From positions 372,001-436,000 of the forward strand of contig NZ_FZNM01000001.1 of the NCBI RefSeq assembly GCF_900188295.1: a stretch of DNA of 64,000 nt. Reading direction: 5' to 3'. The translations under genes were made by a program, and so were the position numbers. Shown here one piece after another: positions 21,641 to 29,741 of the stretch (positions are counted from its first letter, which is position 1; every line of letters begins with the position of its first letter). Below the pieces are notes generated by a model. That model saw only the letters and a program-made list of their open reading frames with translations, was not told the origin of the DNA and did not search any database. The stretch comes from Paracoccus sediminis (GTDB lineage: Bacteria > Pseudomonadota > Alphaproteobacteria > Rhodobacterales > Rhodobacteraceae).

Positions 21641-22132
21641 ATGGACCGCCTTCTGGCCACCTGGTTCTATGCCGGACTGCTGCGCCCCGGCCCCGGCACC
21701 TGGGGATCGGCCGTTGCGGTCGCGATGGGGGTGCTTTTGCACCGCGCCGGGCATTTTCCCCTGTTGGCCCTGGCGACCGGACTGGTCATCCTGCTGGGGT
21801 TCTGGGTCGTGCCGCGCTATACCGCCGGGATGACCGACCCCGACCGCAGCGAGATCGTCATCGACGAGGTGGCGGGACAATGGCTGGCGCTGATGGCGCC
21901 GTCGTTCGGGTTCTGGTCCGCGGGCCTTCCGGCCGACAGCTTTCCCTATCCGGGCTGGGTCGCGGCCTTTCTGTTCTTCCGGCTGTTCGACATCTGGAAA
22001 CCATGGCTGGTCGGCCGCGCCGACCGCCGGCACGACACGGCGGGGGTGATGCTGGACGATCTGTGGGCGGGGATCTTTGCCGCGCTGGCGACGATGGCGG
22101 CGGCGGCCGTCGCCCATGGGGTGCTGATGTGA
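21641..22132 (+). CDS. pgpA: Phosphatidylglycerophosphatase A
   Basis: This 163-residue inner-membrane enzyme dephosphorylates phosphatidylglycerophosphate to phosphatidylglycerol. PgpA signatures are RPGPGTWGSAVAV near the N-terminus, DRSEIVIDEVAGQWLAL, FFRLFDIWKPWLVGRADRR, and GVMLDDLWAGIFAAL. Several hydrophobic segments are present. The ATG lies two bases after the ispDF stop. A much longer frame on this strand is shadow sequence overlapping ispDF. Its TGA overlaps the GTG of the next gene. Confidence 0.93.
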   Translation: MDRLLATWFYAGLLRPGPGTWGSAVAVAMGVLLHRAGHFPLLALATGLVILLGFWVVPRYTAGMTDPDRSEIVIDEVAGQWLALMAPSFGFWSAGLPADSFPYPGWVAAFLFFRLFDIWKPWLVGRADRRHDTAGVMLDDLWAGIFAALATMAAAAVAHGVLM

Positions 22133-22617
22133 CGCTGGCCGCCGAAGTCCTGGACGCCGCCCGCGCGCGGGGCGTGATGATCGCCACCGCCGAAAGCTGC
22201 ACCGGCGGGCTGATCGCGGGCGCCCTGACCGAAGTGGCGGGATCGTCCGATGCCGTGGACCGGGGCTTTGTCACCTATTCCAACGCCGCCAAGCAGCAGA
22301 TGCTGGGGGTCCGGCCGGACACGCTGGTTGCCCATGGCGCGGTCAGCGAACAGGTCGCCGCCGAAATGGCATCGGGCGCCCTGCGCCATTCGGGCGCCGG
22401 AATCGCCGTCGCCGTCACCGGGATCGCCGGACCCGGCGGGTCGGAACACAAGCCCGAAGGACGGGTTTGCTTTGGCATCGCGCAACCCTTTGGCACCCGG
22501 ACCGAAACGGTCGAATTCGGCGCGATCGGGCGGCACCAGGTCCGCGCGGCGACGGTGGACCATGCGCTGCGGATGCTGCTGGACGGCCTGAGCGGCTGGC
22601 AACGCCCGCAAGGTTAA
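22129..22617 (+). CDS. CinA C-terminal family protein (nicotinamide-nucleotide amidase type)
   Basis: This 162-residue protein is a stand-alone CinA C-terminal domain, the PncC family that deamidates NMN. Signatures are ATAESCTGGLIAGALTEVAGSS and GIAVAVTGIAGPGGSEHKPEGRVCFG, covering the catalytic Ser and the Gly-rich loop. I chose the GTG at 22129, which overlaps the pgpA stop (GTGA) and gives MTLAAEVLDAARARG. The stop codon TAA is itself part of a CtrA-type box that precedes the endolysin gene. Confidence 0.92.
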   Translation: MTLAAEVLDAARARGVMIATAESCTGGLIAGALTEVAGSSDAVDRGFVTYSNAAKQQMLGVRPDTLVAHGAVSEQVAAEMASGALRHSGAGIAVAVTGIAGPGGSEHKPEGRVCFGIAQPFGTRTETVEFGAIGRHQVRAATVDHALRMLLDGLSGWQRPQG

Positions 22618-22629
22618 CGGCCGCTTAAC
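22614..22629. promoter_or_regulatory. Perfect CtrA-type box upstream of the lysis genes
   Basis: TTAA-CGGCCGC-TTAAC exactly matches the alphaproteobacterial CtrA consensus TTAA-N7-TTAAC. It starts inside the last codons of the cinA-C gene and lies 46 bases before the endolysin ATG, in a promoter-proximal position. CtrA is known to be required for expression and release functions of gene transfer agents in Rhodobacter. Confidence 0.7.
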
Positions 22630-22675
22630 CGGACCGGCGCACCCTTTCGGCCTGATCTTGCAAGCTGGGGGTGCC

Positions 22676-23287
22676 ATGCCAAGCGTTGAGGAAATCGCAG
22701 CGCAGATTGTCGCGCGCGAAGGCGGTTACGTGAACGACCCCGACGATCCGGGCGGGGCCACGAATTACGGCGTGACCATCGGGACGATGAAGACCCTGGG
22801 TCTGGATCTGAACAAGGACGGGCGCATCGACGCCGAGGACGTCAAGGCGCTGACCCGCGCACAGGCCCAGCAGATCTTCGTCGAACACTACTTTCGCCGT
22901 CCCCGGCTGTCCGACCTGCCCGATGCGGTCCAGGCCAGCGTTTTCGACATGTATGTGAACGCCGGCGGCAACGCGGTGAAGATCCTGCAACGGCTGGTCG
23001 CGCGCATGGGATTTGCGGCCAGTGCCGATGGCGTCGTCGGACCCCAGACCATCGCGGCGGCGCGCGATGCGGCCGCCGCCGCCCCGGCCCATCTGGCCGA
23101 TGCCTATGGAATCGCCCGTCGCAACTATTACTATTCCCTGGCCGATCAGCGTCCCGCCAGCCGCAAATACGCCCGCACCAGGGCGGGCGGCAAGGGAGGC
23201 TGGATCACGCGGGCCGAGGAGTTCGTCAGTCCCCGCTATCACCTGACCGAGGCCGAGCATCGCGAAAGGACCGCCAAATGGGCATGA
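22676..23287 (+). CDS. Endolysin, glycoside hydrolase 108 type (GTA-lysis like)
   Basis: This 203-residue peptidoglycan hydrolase has no signal peptide and so would need a holin to reach the wall. Residues 1-100 contain the GH108 motif VAREGGYVNDPDDPGGATNYGVTIGT, with the catalytic Glu in REGG. A DLNKDGRIDAED insert and a C-terminal peptidoglycan-binding type 3 stretch (ADGVVGPQTIAAAR) follow. The ATG at 22676 is used; an in-frame TTG lies 6 codons earlier. Its stop overlaps the holin gene. The isolated endolysin-holin pair with a CtrA box and no phage genes nearby matches the lysis cassette described for rhodobacterial gene transfer agents. Confidence 0.88.
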   Translation: MPSVEEIAAQIVAREGGYVNDPDDPGGATNYGVTIGTMKTLGLDLNKDGRIDAEDVKALTRAQAQQIFVEHYFRRPRLSDLPDAVQASVFDMYVNAGGNAVKILQRLVARMGFAASADGVVGPQTIAAARDAAAAAPAHLADAYGIARRNYYYSLADQRPASRKYARTRAGGKGGWITRAEEFVSPRYHLTEAEHRERTAKWA

Positions 23288-23802
23288 TCGACCGCTTCAT
23301 CGGCCTGGGCCAGGGCGTCACCGCCCTGGGCAGCGCCGCGACCGGCGTGGCCGAAGTGTTCACCCAGAACGCCACCCGGCGCATGGAACTGGACGAGGAA
23401 GCCTATGCCCGCGCCATCAACGAATTCGGGCAGGAATTCCAGGCCAGCCGGGGCGGACTCTTCGACGGCTTCGTGAACGGCCTCAACCGGCTTCCGCGTC
23501 CGCTTCTGGCGCTGGGGACAATGGGATTGTTCGTCTATGCCATGGTGGAGCCGCAGGGGTTCGGTCTGCGGATGGTGGGCTTGCAGCAGGTGCCCGAGCC
23601 TTTGTGGTGGCTGCTGGGCGCCATCGTCGGCTTTTATTTCGGCGCACGAGAAGCGCATTACTTTCGCGGCCGCGTGTGGCCCAGCCAAAAGGCCACCGTC
23701 ACCACCACGCAGCAGGTCGCAGCCACGACCGCGGTGCGTCCGGATGACGATTTCGCCGACAACGCCGCGTTGCGCGACTGGGTGACGACCCTGCGCGGCT
23801 AG
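23278..23802 (+). CDS. Holin-like protein, three-TM holin family (GTA-lysis partner)
   Basis: This 174-residue protein starts 10 bases before the endolysin stop, with AAAGGA upstream; a second ATG two codons later is possible. Hydrophobic segments lie around residues 79-95 (LLALGTMGLFVYAMV) and 104-122 (LWWLLGAIVGFYFGA), plus a shorter Gly/Ala-rich N-terminal one. The charged N-terminal part and Thr/Val-rich C-terminal tail fit the 3TM holin family. It would form the membrane lesion that lets the signal-less endolysin reach peptidoglycan. A strong terminator follows, so endolysin and holin form one unit. Confidence 0.85.
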   Translation: MGMIDRFIGLGQGVTALGSAATGVAEVFTQNATRRMELDEEAYARAINEFGQEFQASRGGLFDGFVNGLNRLPRPLLALGTMGLFVYAMVEPQGFGLRMVGLQQVPEPLWWLLGAIVGFYFGAREAHYFRGRVWPSQKATVTTTQQVAATTAVRPDDDFADNAALRDWVTTLRG

Positions 23803-23841
23803 GCCGCCGTCTGGCGACACGCAAAACTGAACGCTGGATCG

Positions 23842-23866
23842 AAAGGGGGGCTTTCCCCCCCTTTTT
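23842..23866. terminator. Intrinsic terminator after the holin gene
   Basis: AAAGGGGGG-CTTTC-CCCCCCTTT forms a 9-bp hairpin followed by further T residues. It separates the lysis pair from ccmF. The A-run on the left side means it could also act on the other strand. Confidence 0.85.
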
Positions 23867-23905
23867 CATGGCCCTATGCTTGCCGGGCATCAAGGGATCT
23901 TTGCC

Positions 23906-25867
23906 ATGACAGCAGAATTCGGCCATTTCGCCCTGATCCTCGCCTTTGCGGTGGCGCTGTATCAGATGGTGGTGCCCCTGATCGGCGCCTCGAAAGGCTG
24001 GGGGGGCTGGATGGACAGCGCCCGACCGGCCGCCGTGGCGCAGTTCCTGCTGACCGGCCTGTCCTTTGCATGCCTGACGGTGGCCTTTGTCACGTCCGAT
24101 TTCTCGTTGAAGCTGGTTTACGAGAATTCGCACACGGCCAAGCCGATGATCTACAAGATCAGCGGGGTCTGGGGGAACCACGAAGGATCCATGCTGCTGT
24201 GGGTTCTGATCCTGTCGCTGTTCGGTGCCGCCGCGGCCGTGTTCGGAACCAACCTGCCGCCCGCGCTGCGGGCGCGGGTTCTGGCGGTGCAGGCGTCGAT
24301 CGGGGCGGCGTTCTATGCCTTTATCATCTTTACCTCGAACCCGTTCCTGCGGCTGGCCAGCCCGCCTTTTGACGGGCGCGACCTGAATCCGCTGTTGCAG
24401 GATCCCGGTTTGGCCTTTCATCCGCCCTTCCTGTATCTGGGCTATGTCGGCCTTTCGATGGCCTTCAGCTTTGCCGTCGCCGCCCTGATCGAGGGGCGCG
24501 TGGACGCGGCCTGGGCACGATGGGTGCGGCCCTGGACGCTGGCCGCCTGGATGTTCCTGACCTTCGGCATCGCCCTGGGCTCGTGGTGGGCCTATTACGA
24601 GCTGGGCTGGGGCGGCTTCTGGTTCTGGGATCCGGTCGAAAACGCCAGCTTCATGCCTTGGCTCCTGGCCGCCGCCCTCCTGCATTCGGCCATCGTGGTC
24701 GAAAAGCGCGAGACGCTGAAAAGCTGGACGATCCTGCTGGCGATCATGGCGTTTGGCTTTTCGATGATCGGCACATTCATCGTGCGGTCCGGCGTCCTGA
24801 CATCCGTGCACAGCTTTGCCAGCGATCCGGCCCGAGGCGTCTTCATCCTGGGCATCCTGACGGTGTTCACCGGCGGCGCGCTGACGCTGTATGCCGTGCG
24901 CGCGCCGCAGATGACGGCCAAGGGCGTCTTCGCCCCCGTCTCGCGCGAGGGAGCCCTGATCCTGAACAACGTCCTGCTGGCGGTCGCGGCCTTTGTGGTC
25001 TTCATCGGCACGATGTGGCCCCTCGTGGCCGAGATGCTGTGGGGCCGCAAGCTGTCGGTCGGACCTCCGTTCTTCAACAAGGCCTTTACGCCCTTCATGA
25101 TCGCTCTGGCCCTGGCCCTGCCGCTGGGGGCGATCCTGCCGTGGAAGCGGGGGTTGCTGGGCCGGTCCTTGCAGCCGTTGCGCGGGGCCTTGCTGCTGGC
25201 GGGGTCGGTGATGGCGCTGGTGTTCGCGGTCTCGACCGGCCGTTCGGCGATCGCGGTGATCGGCGCGGGCCTGGGCGCATGGATCGTCTTTGGCGCGGTG
25301 GCCGAACTGATCCACCGCACCGGGCAATCGGGGTGGTCGCGCTTGCTGCGTCTGCCCCGCGCCGACTGGGGAAAGGCCACCGCCCATGCGGGCCTTGGCG
25401 TCACCTTTATCGGCATCAGTCTGCTGACCGCCTGGCAGGTCGAGGATATCCGCGTGGCCCAGGTCGGCCAAACCTTCCGGGTGGCCGATTACGACATCAC
25501 CCTGGCCAGCGTCGACGAGGTCCAGGGGCCGAACTACATCTCGACCACGGCGACCATGCAGGTCGCCCGCGATGGCCGTCCTGTCGCGACCCTGCAACCC
25601 GAAAAGCGCGTCTATCCCGTCCAGGCCATGCCCACCACCGAAGCCGCGATCGACAACGGCTTTTTCCGGGACATCTATCTGGTGATCGGCGATGCGCAGA
25701 AAGACGGGGGATGGGCCGTGCGCACCTATGTCAAGCCCTTTGCCAACTGGATCTGGGCCGGCACGATCCTGATGGCGCTTGGCGGGATCATCAGCCTTTC
25801 CGACCGGCGCTATCGCGTGGCGGCGGGGGTGCGGCGCGTATCCCCCGCGGCGGTCCCCGCGGAATGA
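23906..25867 (+). CDS. ccmF: Cytochrome c heme lyase subunit CcmF
   Basis: This 653-residue polytopic inner-membrane protein attaches heme to apocytochromes c in System I. The WWD heme-handling domain is clear (SWWAYYELGWGGFWFWDP), as are SNPFLRL, FHPPFLYLGYVG, and the many hydrophobic segments. The ATG at 23906 (MTAEFGHFALILAFAVALYQ) gives the standard N-terminus; a frame open 10 codons earlier is ignored. It overlaps ccmH by ATGA, so the two heme-ligation subunits are co-translated. Confidence 0.97.
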   Translation: MTAEFGHFALILAFAVALYQMVVPLIGASKGWGGWMDSARPAAVAQFLLTGLSFACLTVAFVTSDFSLKLVYENSHTAKPMIYKISGVWGNHEGSMLLWVLILSLFGAAAAVFGTNLPPALRARVLAVQASIGAAFYAFIIFTSNPFLRLASPPFDGRDLNPLLQDPGLAFHPPFLYLGYVGLSMAFSFAVAALIEGRVDAAWARWVRPWTLAAWMFLTFGIALGSWWAYYELGWGGFWFWDPVENASFMPWLLAAALLHSAIVVEKRETLKSWTILLAIMAFGFSMIGTFIVRSGVLTSVHSFASDPARGVFILGILTVFTGGALTLYAVRAPQMTAKGVFAPVSREGALILNNVLLAVAAFVVFIGTMWPLVAEMLWGRKLSVGPPFFNKAFTPFMIALALALPLGAILPWKRGLLGRSLQPLRGALLLAGSVMALVFAVSTGRSAIAVIGAGLGAWIVFGAVAELIHRTGQSGWSRLLRLPRADWGKATAHAGLGVTFIGISLLTAWQVEDIRVAQVGQTFRVADYDITLASVDEVQGPNYISTTATMQVARDGRPVATLQPEKRVYPVQAMPTTEAAIDNGFFRDIYLVIGDAQKDGGWAVRTYVKPFANWIWAGTILMALGGIISLSDRRYRVAAGVRRVSPAAVPAE

Positions 25868-28358: not shown

Positions 28359-29741
28359 TTAGTGGGCGGGCTGCATGGGCGCTATCAGAACCTGGTTCCG
28401 GCCCAGCGACTTTGCCGCGATCATGGCGCGGTCGGCACGTTCAAGGGCTATTTCGGCCAGGACATCGGGACGGCTGATGTAAAAGGGCGCCTGTTCCAGT
28501 GCCACGCCGACCGACAGCGTGACCTGCACCTGTCCCCCGCCGGACACGCGCGGCAGCAGGGTCGGACGGGTTTCGACAGCGCGGCGGATGTCCTGGGCGA
28601 TGCGATGGGCTTCGGTTTCGGTGGTGTCGGCCAGGACGACCAGGAACTCCTCTCCTCCCAGGCGGGCGGTCATGCCGCGCCCTGCGACCACGCTTTCCAC
28701 CCGGCGCGCGACATCGCACAGCACGGCGTCGCCCGCCGCATGGCCGAAATTGTCGTTGATGGTTTTGAAGCGGTCCAGATCCAGTGCCATCACCGCAAAG
28801 CCGGACTGCTGGCGCATGGCGCCGCGCGCGATCTCGACCAGTTGCGGCACGGCATAGCGGCGGTTGTAAAGGCCAGTCAGCGGATCGGTCATGGCCCAAG
28901 CCATGTTGCGCTTGACCTCCTCGCGACGGCTGTCGGCGCGGCGCTTGCGGTCCAGCTGGTTGCGCAGGGCCAGGGCTGCGATTTCGGCGTTGTTTTCCCC
29001 GGCCGGATCCAGGGGAAGAACCTCTCCTGCGCCCAGGTCCAGGGCAATGGCGCACAGTTCCTCGCGCTCGGGCGCGACCAGGACGGCAAAGCCCGCCTCT
29101 TTCGATCCATTGCGGGACCGCAGTTCCGACAGCAGCCGCAGCCCGTCGCCCTTGCGGTCGATGTCGGCGGCGATGATGTAGAGGTCCGCGCCGTCCCCCT
29201 GGGCTGCCGCGCTGAGCGTCTCGTCAGGGCTGGAAATGGCGAATCGGCAGTTCAGGCGCGGTTGCAGGATATGGCGCCAGCGTTGCGCCCGCGCGGGTTG
29301 GTCGGCCACCAGAACCACATTGCCCGACGGGGCGGGCGCAAAGCCCCCGGCGGCCTCGGCCATGGCGAATTGCGGGGCATCGGTTTCGGAATCGCGCAGC
29401 AGGCCGCGCACCCGTGCCAGCAGCATCTGCTCCTCGACCCGCGGATCCAGAACCGCCGAGGCCCCCGCCTCCAGCGCATCGACCCGACGCTGGCCGTCGG
29501 CCAGGGCCAGAACGGGCGTGCGGGGCCGTTCCACCGACACCATGCGAAAGAAATCGGCCAGCGGCAGTTCCGTGAACCCCATGCCCAGCAGGATCAGGTC
29601 CGGGTGGCCCAGCCGCAGTTGCGACAGCAGTTCGTTCACGGTCGCGGCGGCCAGCACGTCATAGCATGCCCCCGAAAGCCTGACCTTAAGGCTGATCCGG
29701 CTTGTCGCGCTGCTTTCCGCAATGAGGATACGCGCAGTCAT
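28359..29741 (-). CDS. pleD: PleD-like diguanylate cyclase with degenerate receiver domains
   Basis: This 460-residue protein has the PleD layout: receiver (1-118), second receiver-like domain (~140-262), and GGDEF domain (~285-455). The GGDEF domain is intact (LTGLYNRRY, DLDRFKTINDNFGHAAGD, LGGEEF at 361-366), so it should make c-di-GMP. Aligned position by position with the Caulobacter PleD N-terminus, the acidic pair D9-D10 is E9-S10 and the phospho-acceptor D53 is Gly in the string PDLILLGMGF. The RxxD I-site, five residues before the GG motif, reads AGRG. Phosphorylation control and I-site product inhibition therefore both look lost. It is divergent from the DUF3572 gene. Confidence 0.9.
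   Translation of the reverse strand: MTARILIAESSATSRISLKVRLSGACYDVLAAATVNELLSQLRLGHPDLILLGMGFTELPLADFFRMVSVERPRTPVLALADGQRRVDALEAGASAVLDPRVEEQMLLARVRGLLRDSETDAPQFAMAEAAGGFAPAPSGNVVLVADQPARAQRWRHILQPRLNCRFAISSPDETLSAAAQGDGADLYIIAADIDRKGDGLRLLSELRSRNGSKEAGFAVLVAPEREELCAIALDLGAGEVLPLDPAGENNAEIAALALRNQLDRKRRADSRREEVKRNMAWAMTDPLTGLYNRRYAVPQLVEIARGAMRQQSGFAVMALDLDRFKTINDNFGHAAGDAVLCDVARRVESVVAGRGMTARLGGEEFLVVLADTTETEAHRIAQDIRRAVETRPTLLPRVSGGGQVQVTLSVGVALEQAPFYISRPDVLAEIALERADRAMIAAKSLGRNQVLIAPMQPAH

Follow-up and report, generated by a model that had tools for sequence, protein, structure and literature searches.

The endolysin-holin pair in the window (the whole 64,000-nt stretch of DNA that was analyzed, from a genome of the genus Paracoccus) is likely to be a lysis cassette of the RcGTA type, encoded apart from the structural cluster of the gene transfer agent (GTA), with a promoter that takes input from both CtrA and the GTA activator GafA. 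This assessment draws on orthology, synteny, the presence of a GTA cluster and a gafA-like gene in the same genome, and the conservation and fixed spacing of two promoter elements, namely a CtrA box and a second element, CGNNCG (Table 1). A GTA lysis cassette had been predicted here in a sequence-only reading, and the GTA cluster, the orthology with the Rhodobacter capsulatus locus, and the conservation of the box within the genus support that prediction. Three things were absent from the earlier reading: the second element, the ccm setting that is likely ancestral for the pair, and the rearrangement at cinA that accounts for the "box in the stop codon."

Table 1. Features of the lysis locus and its promoter (positions in the window)
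Feature	Position	Strand	Description
cinA	22129..22617	+	GTG start; PF02464 2.4e-53; runs into the promoter
Second element GCAACGCCCG	22599..22608	+	Core CGCCCG (CGNNCG) at 22603-22608; candidate GafA operator; conserved in family and genus
CtrA box TTAACGGCCGCTTAAC	22614..22629	+	TTAAC-N6-TTAAC (TTAA-N7-TTAAC); conserved in genus
GTA endolysin	22676..23287	+	GH108 + PG_binding_3; NCBIfam holin-associated N-acetylmuramidase
Holin	23278..23802	+	PF11351 GTA_holin_3TM 7.4e-28
Intrinsic terminator GGGGGGCTTTCCCCCC, then T-run	23845..23866	+	GC stem; closes the lysis unit
ccmF	23906..25867	+	Downstream neighbor of the pair, conserved across the family

The lysis pair and its genomic setting

Two Pfam domains were identified in the endolysin (PF05838, 7.5e-28; PF09374, 2.5e-22), which also passed the NCBIfam model for a holin-associated N-acetylmuramidase (361 bits vs a cut-off of 240), and the family matched by the holin is entitled "Holin of 3TMs, for gene-transfer release." These matches bear out the earlier description of a GH108 endolysin overlapping a 3TM holin, the 3' end of the former and the start of the latter sharing 10 nt (23278-23287). 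The 46 bases said to separate the CtrA box from the endolysin (22629 to the ATG at 22676-22678) and the strong terminator said to close the unit were likewise found. Seven terminator-like sites, several of them overlapping, were listed in the interval 21900-24300, where 2.0 were expected. No sigma-70-like site that would place the -10 element of the lysis promoter was found in that interval.

Alignment with the R. capsulatus lysis locus (G279; taken as rcc00555/rcc00556 from its family and genome position, not from a locus tag) gave 133 of 203 identical residues for the endolysin and, against an R. capsulatus open frame, 93 of 158 aligned residues for the holin. Endolysins in loci of 24 other genera were 64-75% identical. 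The window's pair and the R. capsulatus lysis genes are orthologs. The R. capsulatus pair also lies away from the structural cluster, where it adjoins ccmE (PF03100), and a TTAACC half-site is found 45 nt before its endolysin start. R. capsulatus has one more GTA_holin_3TM match, a weak one (L350, G279 C1:1078830; 25.7 bits), with no endolysin match beside it.

The family sample comprised 120 genomes from 119 genera; 111 loci (L010-L120) were fetched, and after six without a usable endolysin start were dropped (L038, L060, L112, L115, L119, and L120), 105 were analyzed together with the window. Linkage to ccm genes was evident in 93 of the 105 family loci, as ccmE (82) or ccmF (72) within the fetched stretch (CcmE was verified by Pfam in two of these loci), and hence the order ccmE-promoter-endolysin-holin-ccmF is likely ancestral. 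The remaining 12 are unlinked copies. As the comparison shows, the pair has long been stably settled at the cytochrome c maturation locus and is no stray phage remnant.

At the window locus, ccmF alone has been kept, and cinA stands upstream in place of ccmE, whereas R. capsulatus retains ccmE. The upstream gene is ccmE in 27 of 30 genus loci and cinA in the window's own, with no ccmE match in two others (L134 and L138). Paracoccus acridae (L263), which is outside these 30, shares the replacement of ccmE by cinA. Its cinA ends with TAG directly before the sequence CAACG; the codon at that place in the window is TGG, leaving cinA six codons longer (WQRPQG) and ending in the TAA of the first CtrA half-site (22615-22617). 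The box does, as claimed, reach into the stop codon of the upstream gene. The rearrangement placed a purL-ispDF-pgpA-cinA block where relatives have ccmE.

That the pair is instead a prophage remnant unrelated to GTA release is very improbable, and this reading was rejected. The endolysin does match a PHROG endolysin family (1.7e-35), a minority of the family loci are unlinked to ccm, and Methylobacterium nodulans has prophage-like segments in which homologues of rcc00555 adjoin head-tail clusters resembling that of RcGTA (PMC11409702), so that the endolysin gene has a phage origin. The fixed ccm neighborhood, the high conservation, and the linkage with gafA and GTA genes nonetheless contradict a remnant. 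The statement that there are no other phage genes held as far as it was tested: among 20 further window genes (of 57 ORFs selected), no phage family was matched (Pfam, E 1e-6), and two of the 20 had no family of any kind.

The sequence-only reading had made its prediction depend on a GTA structural cluster elsewhere in the genome, and such a cluster was found on contig C13, in the order fabF-mltG-...-TerL-portal-protease-capsid-...-g15, with the ketoacyl synthase (fabF) and YceG (mltG) genes preceding TerL. The contig also encodes a major tail protein, an RcGTA-type tape measure protein (NCBIfam RcGTA_tape passed), matches to TIGR02217, TIGR02218, and TIGR02219, and distal tail, hub, and NlpC proteins. 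GTA_TIM and Rcc01698_C are both present in the g15 protein, and the capsid matches the RcGTA capsid Rcc01687 in the PDB (2e-150, 62% identity). One gafA-like DUF6456 gene is located at C30:219334. Two more GTA_TIM (g15-like) genes (C18:7457-8353 and C12:9910-10806) may belong to prophages with GTA-like tails or to extra clusters.

Across the 120 family genomes, the holin family was found in 103, GTA_TIM in 104, and DUF6456 in 110, and eight genomes were without all three. The gafA-like gene and the holin occurred together in 102 genomes, gafA alone in eight, the holin alone in one, and neither in nine (p 2e-8, ignoring relatedness). The corresponding numbers for GTA_TIM and the holin were 96, 8, 7, and 9 (p 2e-5, again ignoring relatedness), meaning that 7 of the 16 genomes without GTA_TIM still hold the holin (G028, G030, G036, G071, G076, G095, and G114). 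One of these, G071, nonetheless has a GTA-type capsid. Within the genus, the holin was present in 79 of 81 genomes, and the two without it are 71% and 81% complete.

Two conserved elements in the lysis promoter

The claim of a perfect CtrA box in front of the pair was correct to the base. TTAA-N7-TTAA occurs once in the window, where shuffles predict 0.01 occurrences, and 15 times in the 3.64-Mb genome vs 4 for the reversed pattern, and a chance match was rejected on these counts. The box is exact in 24 and within one mismatch in all of the 30 lysis loci compared in the genus (the top 30 by score among 79 genomes with a match, the window's own included), although counts within the genus are not independent because the loci are closely related. 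The lysis promoter is thereby supported as a candidate CtrA-controlled promoter, its box being conserved in relatives. The other 14 perfect boxes in the genome have mixed neighbor genes (capsule/sugar transferases, RTX, Hint, PAS, LysR, and others; 20 neighbors scanned). One of them precedes a 535-aa PAS-domain protein (L368 2577-4213), which may be DivL-like and for which there was no NCBIfam match.

In the wider family, the box usually amounts to one strong half-site, and the upstream half is weak (T at 0.41 and 0.56 at -11 and -10). Two-half boxes with up to one mismatch were counted in 19 of 106 family promoters vs 5 of 618 control intervals, a weak signal against controls that are themselves weak since they are mostly coding DNA; a stronger promoter signal came from anchoring on the half-site. 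Also conserved downstream of TTAACC are CA at +15/16 and TT at +20/21. The prevalence of a single strong half-site would fit a TTAACC that is merely a -35 element, with CtrA acting on lysis indirectly via GafA. We consider this unlikely, given the exact double half-sites at CtrA spacing in most genus loci, the diminished GafA-driven induction of the R. capsulatus endolysin when ctrA is missing (PMC6363796), and the putative CtrA half-sites that Sherlock and Fogg (2022, PMC9638019) report in three late promoters, that of the R. capsulatus lysis genes included.

Upstream of this candidate CtrA site, family promoters share the second element. In 68 promoters anchored on TTAAC (window included), CG-N-R-CG is conserved at -22 with frequencies of C 0.91, G 0.93, C 0.93, and G 0.93, and with a slightly wider anchor, CGNNCG lies exactly 22 nt upstream of the TTAACC half-site in 60 of 70 family promoters (window included). 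At offsets more than 6 nt away from -22, CGNNCG was found in a mean of 0.38 and a maximum of four of the same 70 promoters, and -18 has five. Anchors were chosen after inspecting the sequences, and TTAAC was absent from the first anchor range in 38 of 106 upstream regions. Within the genus, CAACG..C and the composite CGNNCG-N16-TTAA are each present in 29 of 30 lysis loci. The composite in the window, CGCCCGCAAGGTTAACGGCCGCTTAACC (22603-22630), is its single occurrence there. It was further identified in 64 of 80 database loci (the best-scoring 80 of 552, a set that is rich in Paracoccus and overlaps with the other samples); 15 of the 16 loci missing it are not Paracoccus by title. In the family sample, the composite accompanies 68 of 93 ccm-linked cassettes vs 2 of 12 unlinked ones (Fisher 2e-4). 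Where the promoter in the window shows a full double CtrA box and its CGNNCG is intact, the lysis promoter of R. capsulatus itself has one half-site, and the sequence at -22 is a degenerate TGAGCG that overlaps with the stop codon of ccmE.

The possibility that CGNNCG forms part of an extended CtrA site was rejected: among the 15 perfect boxes of the genome, the lysis box alone has CGNNCG at that place, and the GTA promoter of R. capsulatus has CGNNCG yet is reported not to be bound by CtrA (PMC6363796). It is very improbable that the element is conserved as code for the C-terminus of the upstream gene and not as DNA. The ccmE frame ends within or after the element in 30 of the 53 ccmE-linked promoters that have it, and a stop codon within the lysis promoter is thus not rare in the family; the stop nonetheless comes first in the other 23, and the P. 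acridae element lies behind the stop of a gene unrelated to ccmE, namely cinA. CGNNCG at the lysis promoter is probably a GafA site.

CGNNCG in the gafA and GTA-cluster promoters

In Fogg 2019 (PMC6363796), GafA is reported at three promoters, those of the GTA cluster, gafA, and the lysis genes, which led us to look for CGNNCG in the first two as well. The same study describes binding of CtrA to the gafA promoter but not to the GTA promoter. The C-terminal domain of GafA binds a GTA fragment containing the -35, the -10, and the transcription start site, and putative GafA sites are drawn in two of the three late promoters with CtrA half-sites (Fig. S7 of PMC9638019). Part of the CGNNCG motif may therefore already be in print in that figure, and the GafA site was called unmapped in a 2024 paper.

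CGNNCG occupied fixed positions in most promoters of both sets. Upstream of gafA in the genus, it lies at -21 from TTTAG in 27 of 28 promoters (2 of 30 had no anchor), and in the family it lies at -60 (10 promoters) or -61 (4 promoters) from the CtrA box among 16 promoters; the other 4 of 20, two of which come from the window's genome and from congener G023, offered no box as an anchor. Both CGTTCG and CGAACG occur as the core of gafA promoters. In GTA-cluster promoters, CGNNCG is found at +9 from TTGAC, within the spacer between -35 and -10, in 23 of 27 genus promoters (1 of 28 not anchored; fragments L231 and L232 left out) and in 10 of 17 family ones (3 of 20 gave no anchor, and the 17 in use likely include false ones). 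The R. capsulatus (G279) GTA promoter reads TTGACTTTGCGAACGCTTCAAGGTAGAG, with the hexamer GCGAACGC, and its gafA promoter reads CAACCGAACGCTGCG, with the hexamer CCGAACGC. In the window's own genome, the GTA promoter reads AGAACG instead of CGNNCG. A second CGNNCG, at +56 in the conserved leader of the genus GTA promoters, is almost as constant in position (21 of 27) as the one proposed here, and fixed spacing alone therefore proves nothing.

The gafA promoter of the window's genome (L261; C30 about 218563) contains TTAAC-N5-TTAAC, one base short of the usual CtrA spacing, as do the gafA promoters of five congeners (L249, L252, L253, L254, and L260). On contig C13, the gap behind mltG was rejected as the GTA promoter, the true promoter being further down: a 145-aa ORF and a terminator (identified by eye) separate the two (L121 13117-13812), and the promoter TTGAC is at L121 13813, about 0.7 kb past the mltG stop.

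With somewhat more belief than doubt, we propose that CGNNCG (near sCGNRCGs) serves as the GafA operator throughout Rhodobacteraceae in three geometries, namely in the -35/-10 spacer of the GTA promoter, about 21 nt before TTTAG/TTTAT at gafA, and 22 nt before TTAACC at the lysis genes, so that GTA production, self-activation, and lysis gated by CtrA would all belong to one circuit. It is possible, if doubtful, that CGNNCG is instead the site of another shared factor, or three unrelated CG-rich features, and that GafA recognizes something else. In keeping with this, a weight matrix derived from the GTA promoters transfers just in part, scoring highest at -22 in 26 of 70 lysis promoters (7 at the next offset) and at -60 in 4 of 20 gafA promoters, and the gafA core is variable, as noted above. 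Against it, the regulator reported at all three promoters is GafA, and CGNNCG sits within the GTA fragment bound by its C-terminal domain. The Caulobacter element bound by GafZ is similarly placed between -35 and -10 (PMC11150451).

Predicted control of lysis and comparison with known systems

With CGNNCG as the GafA operator, phosphorylated CtrA would occupy TTAAC-N6-TTAACC, overlapping or flanking the -35 region, and GafA would read CGNNCG 22 nt upstream of the TTAACC half-site. Together, the two would switch on the endolysin and holin late in the GTA program, so that lysis proteins would be made just in cells that are already running this program (GafA) and in which CtrA is phosphorylated. 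The arrangement suggests that lysis needs both signals (AND logic), with binding by CtrA and GafA predicted from the promoter sequences. Published expression data support such logic in R. capsulatus (PMC6363796), where both regulators are needed for endolysin expression (PMC6363796, PMC9638019). Cells that make GTAs die in releasing the particles, and a gate on the lysis genes would therefore decide who pays. The comparison also names exact bases in three promoters and supplies a signature by which further GTA genes could be sought across the family.

In Dinoroseobacter shibae, an endolysin and holin (Dshi_1756/1757) have been named for GTA release within a CtrA/quorum-sensing network; the CtrA sites given in that account are those of gafA, com, and Tad genes, and the lysis pair is not mentioned among them (PMC6473078). 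In Caulobacter crescentus, GafZ, a homologue of the GafA C-terminus, binds the CcGTA promoter element mentioned above, and the left arm of this element, GCGCCCG, contains CGNNCG (PMC11150451). The system differs in having a separate GafY element (mutated bases ACTATG) and a dependence on IHF (PMC11150451), and the description in PMC9632790 records neither homologues of the R. capsulatus lysis genes nor a holin/endolysin there. A response regulator-GGDEF protein is encoded in the window at 28362-29741, about 4.6 kb from the lysis pair, and c-di-GMP has been reported to affect CckA in R. capsulatus (PMC9638019).
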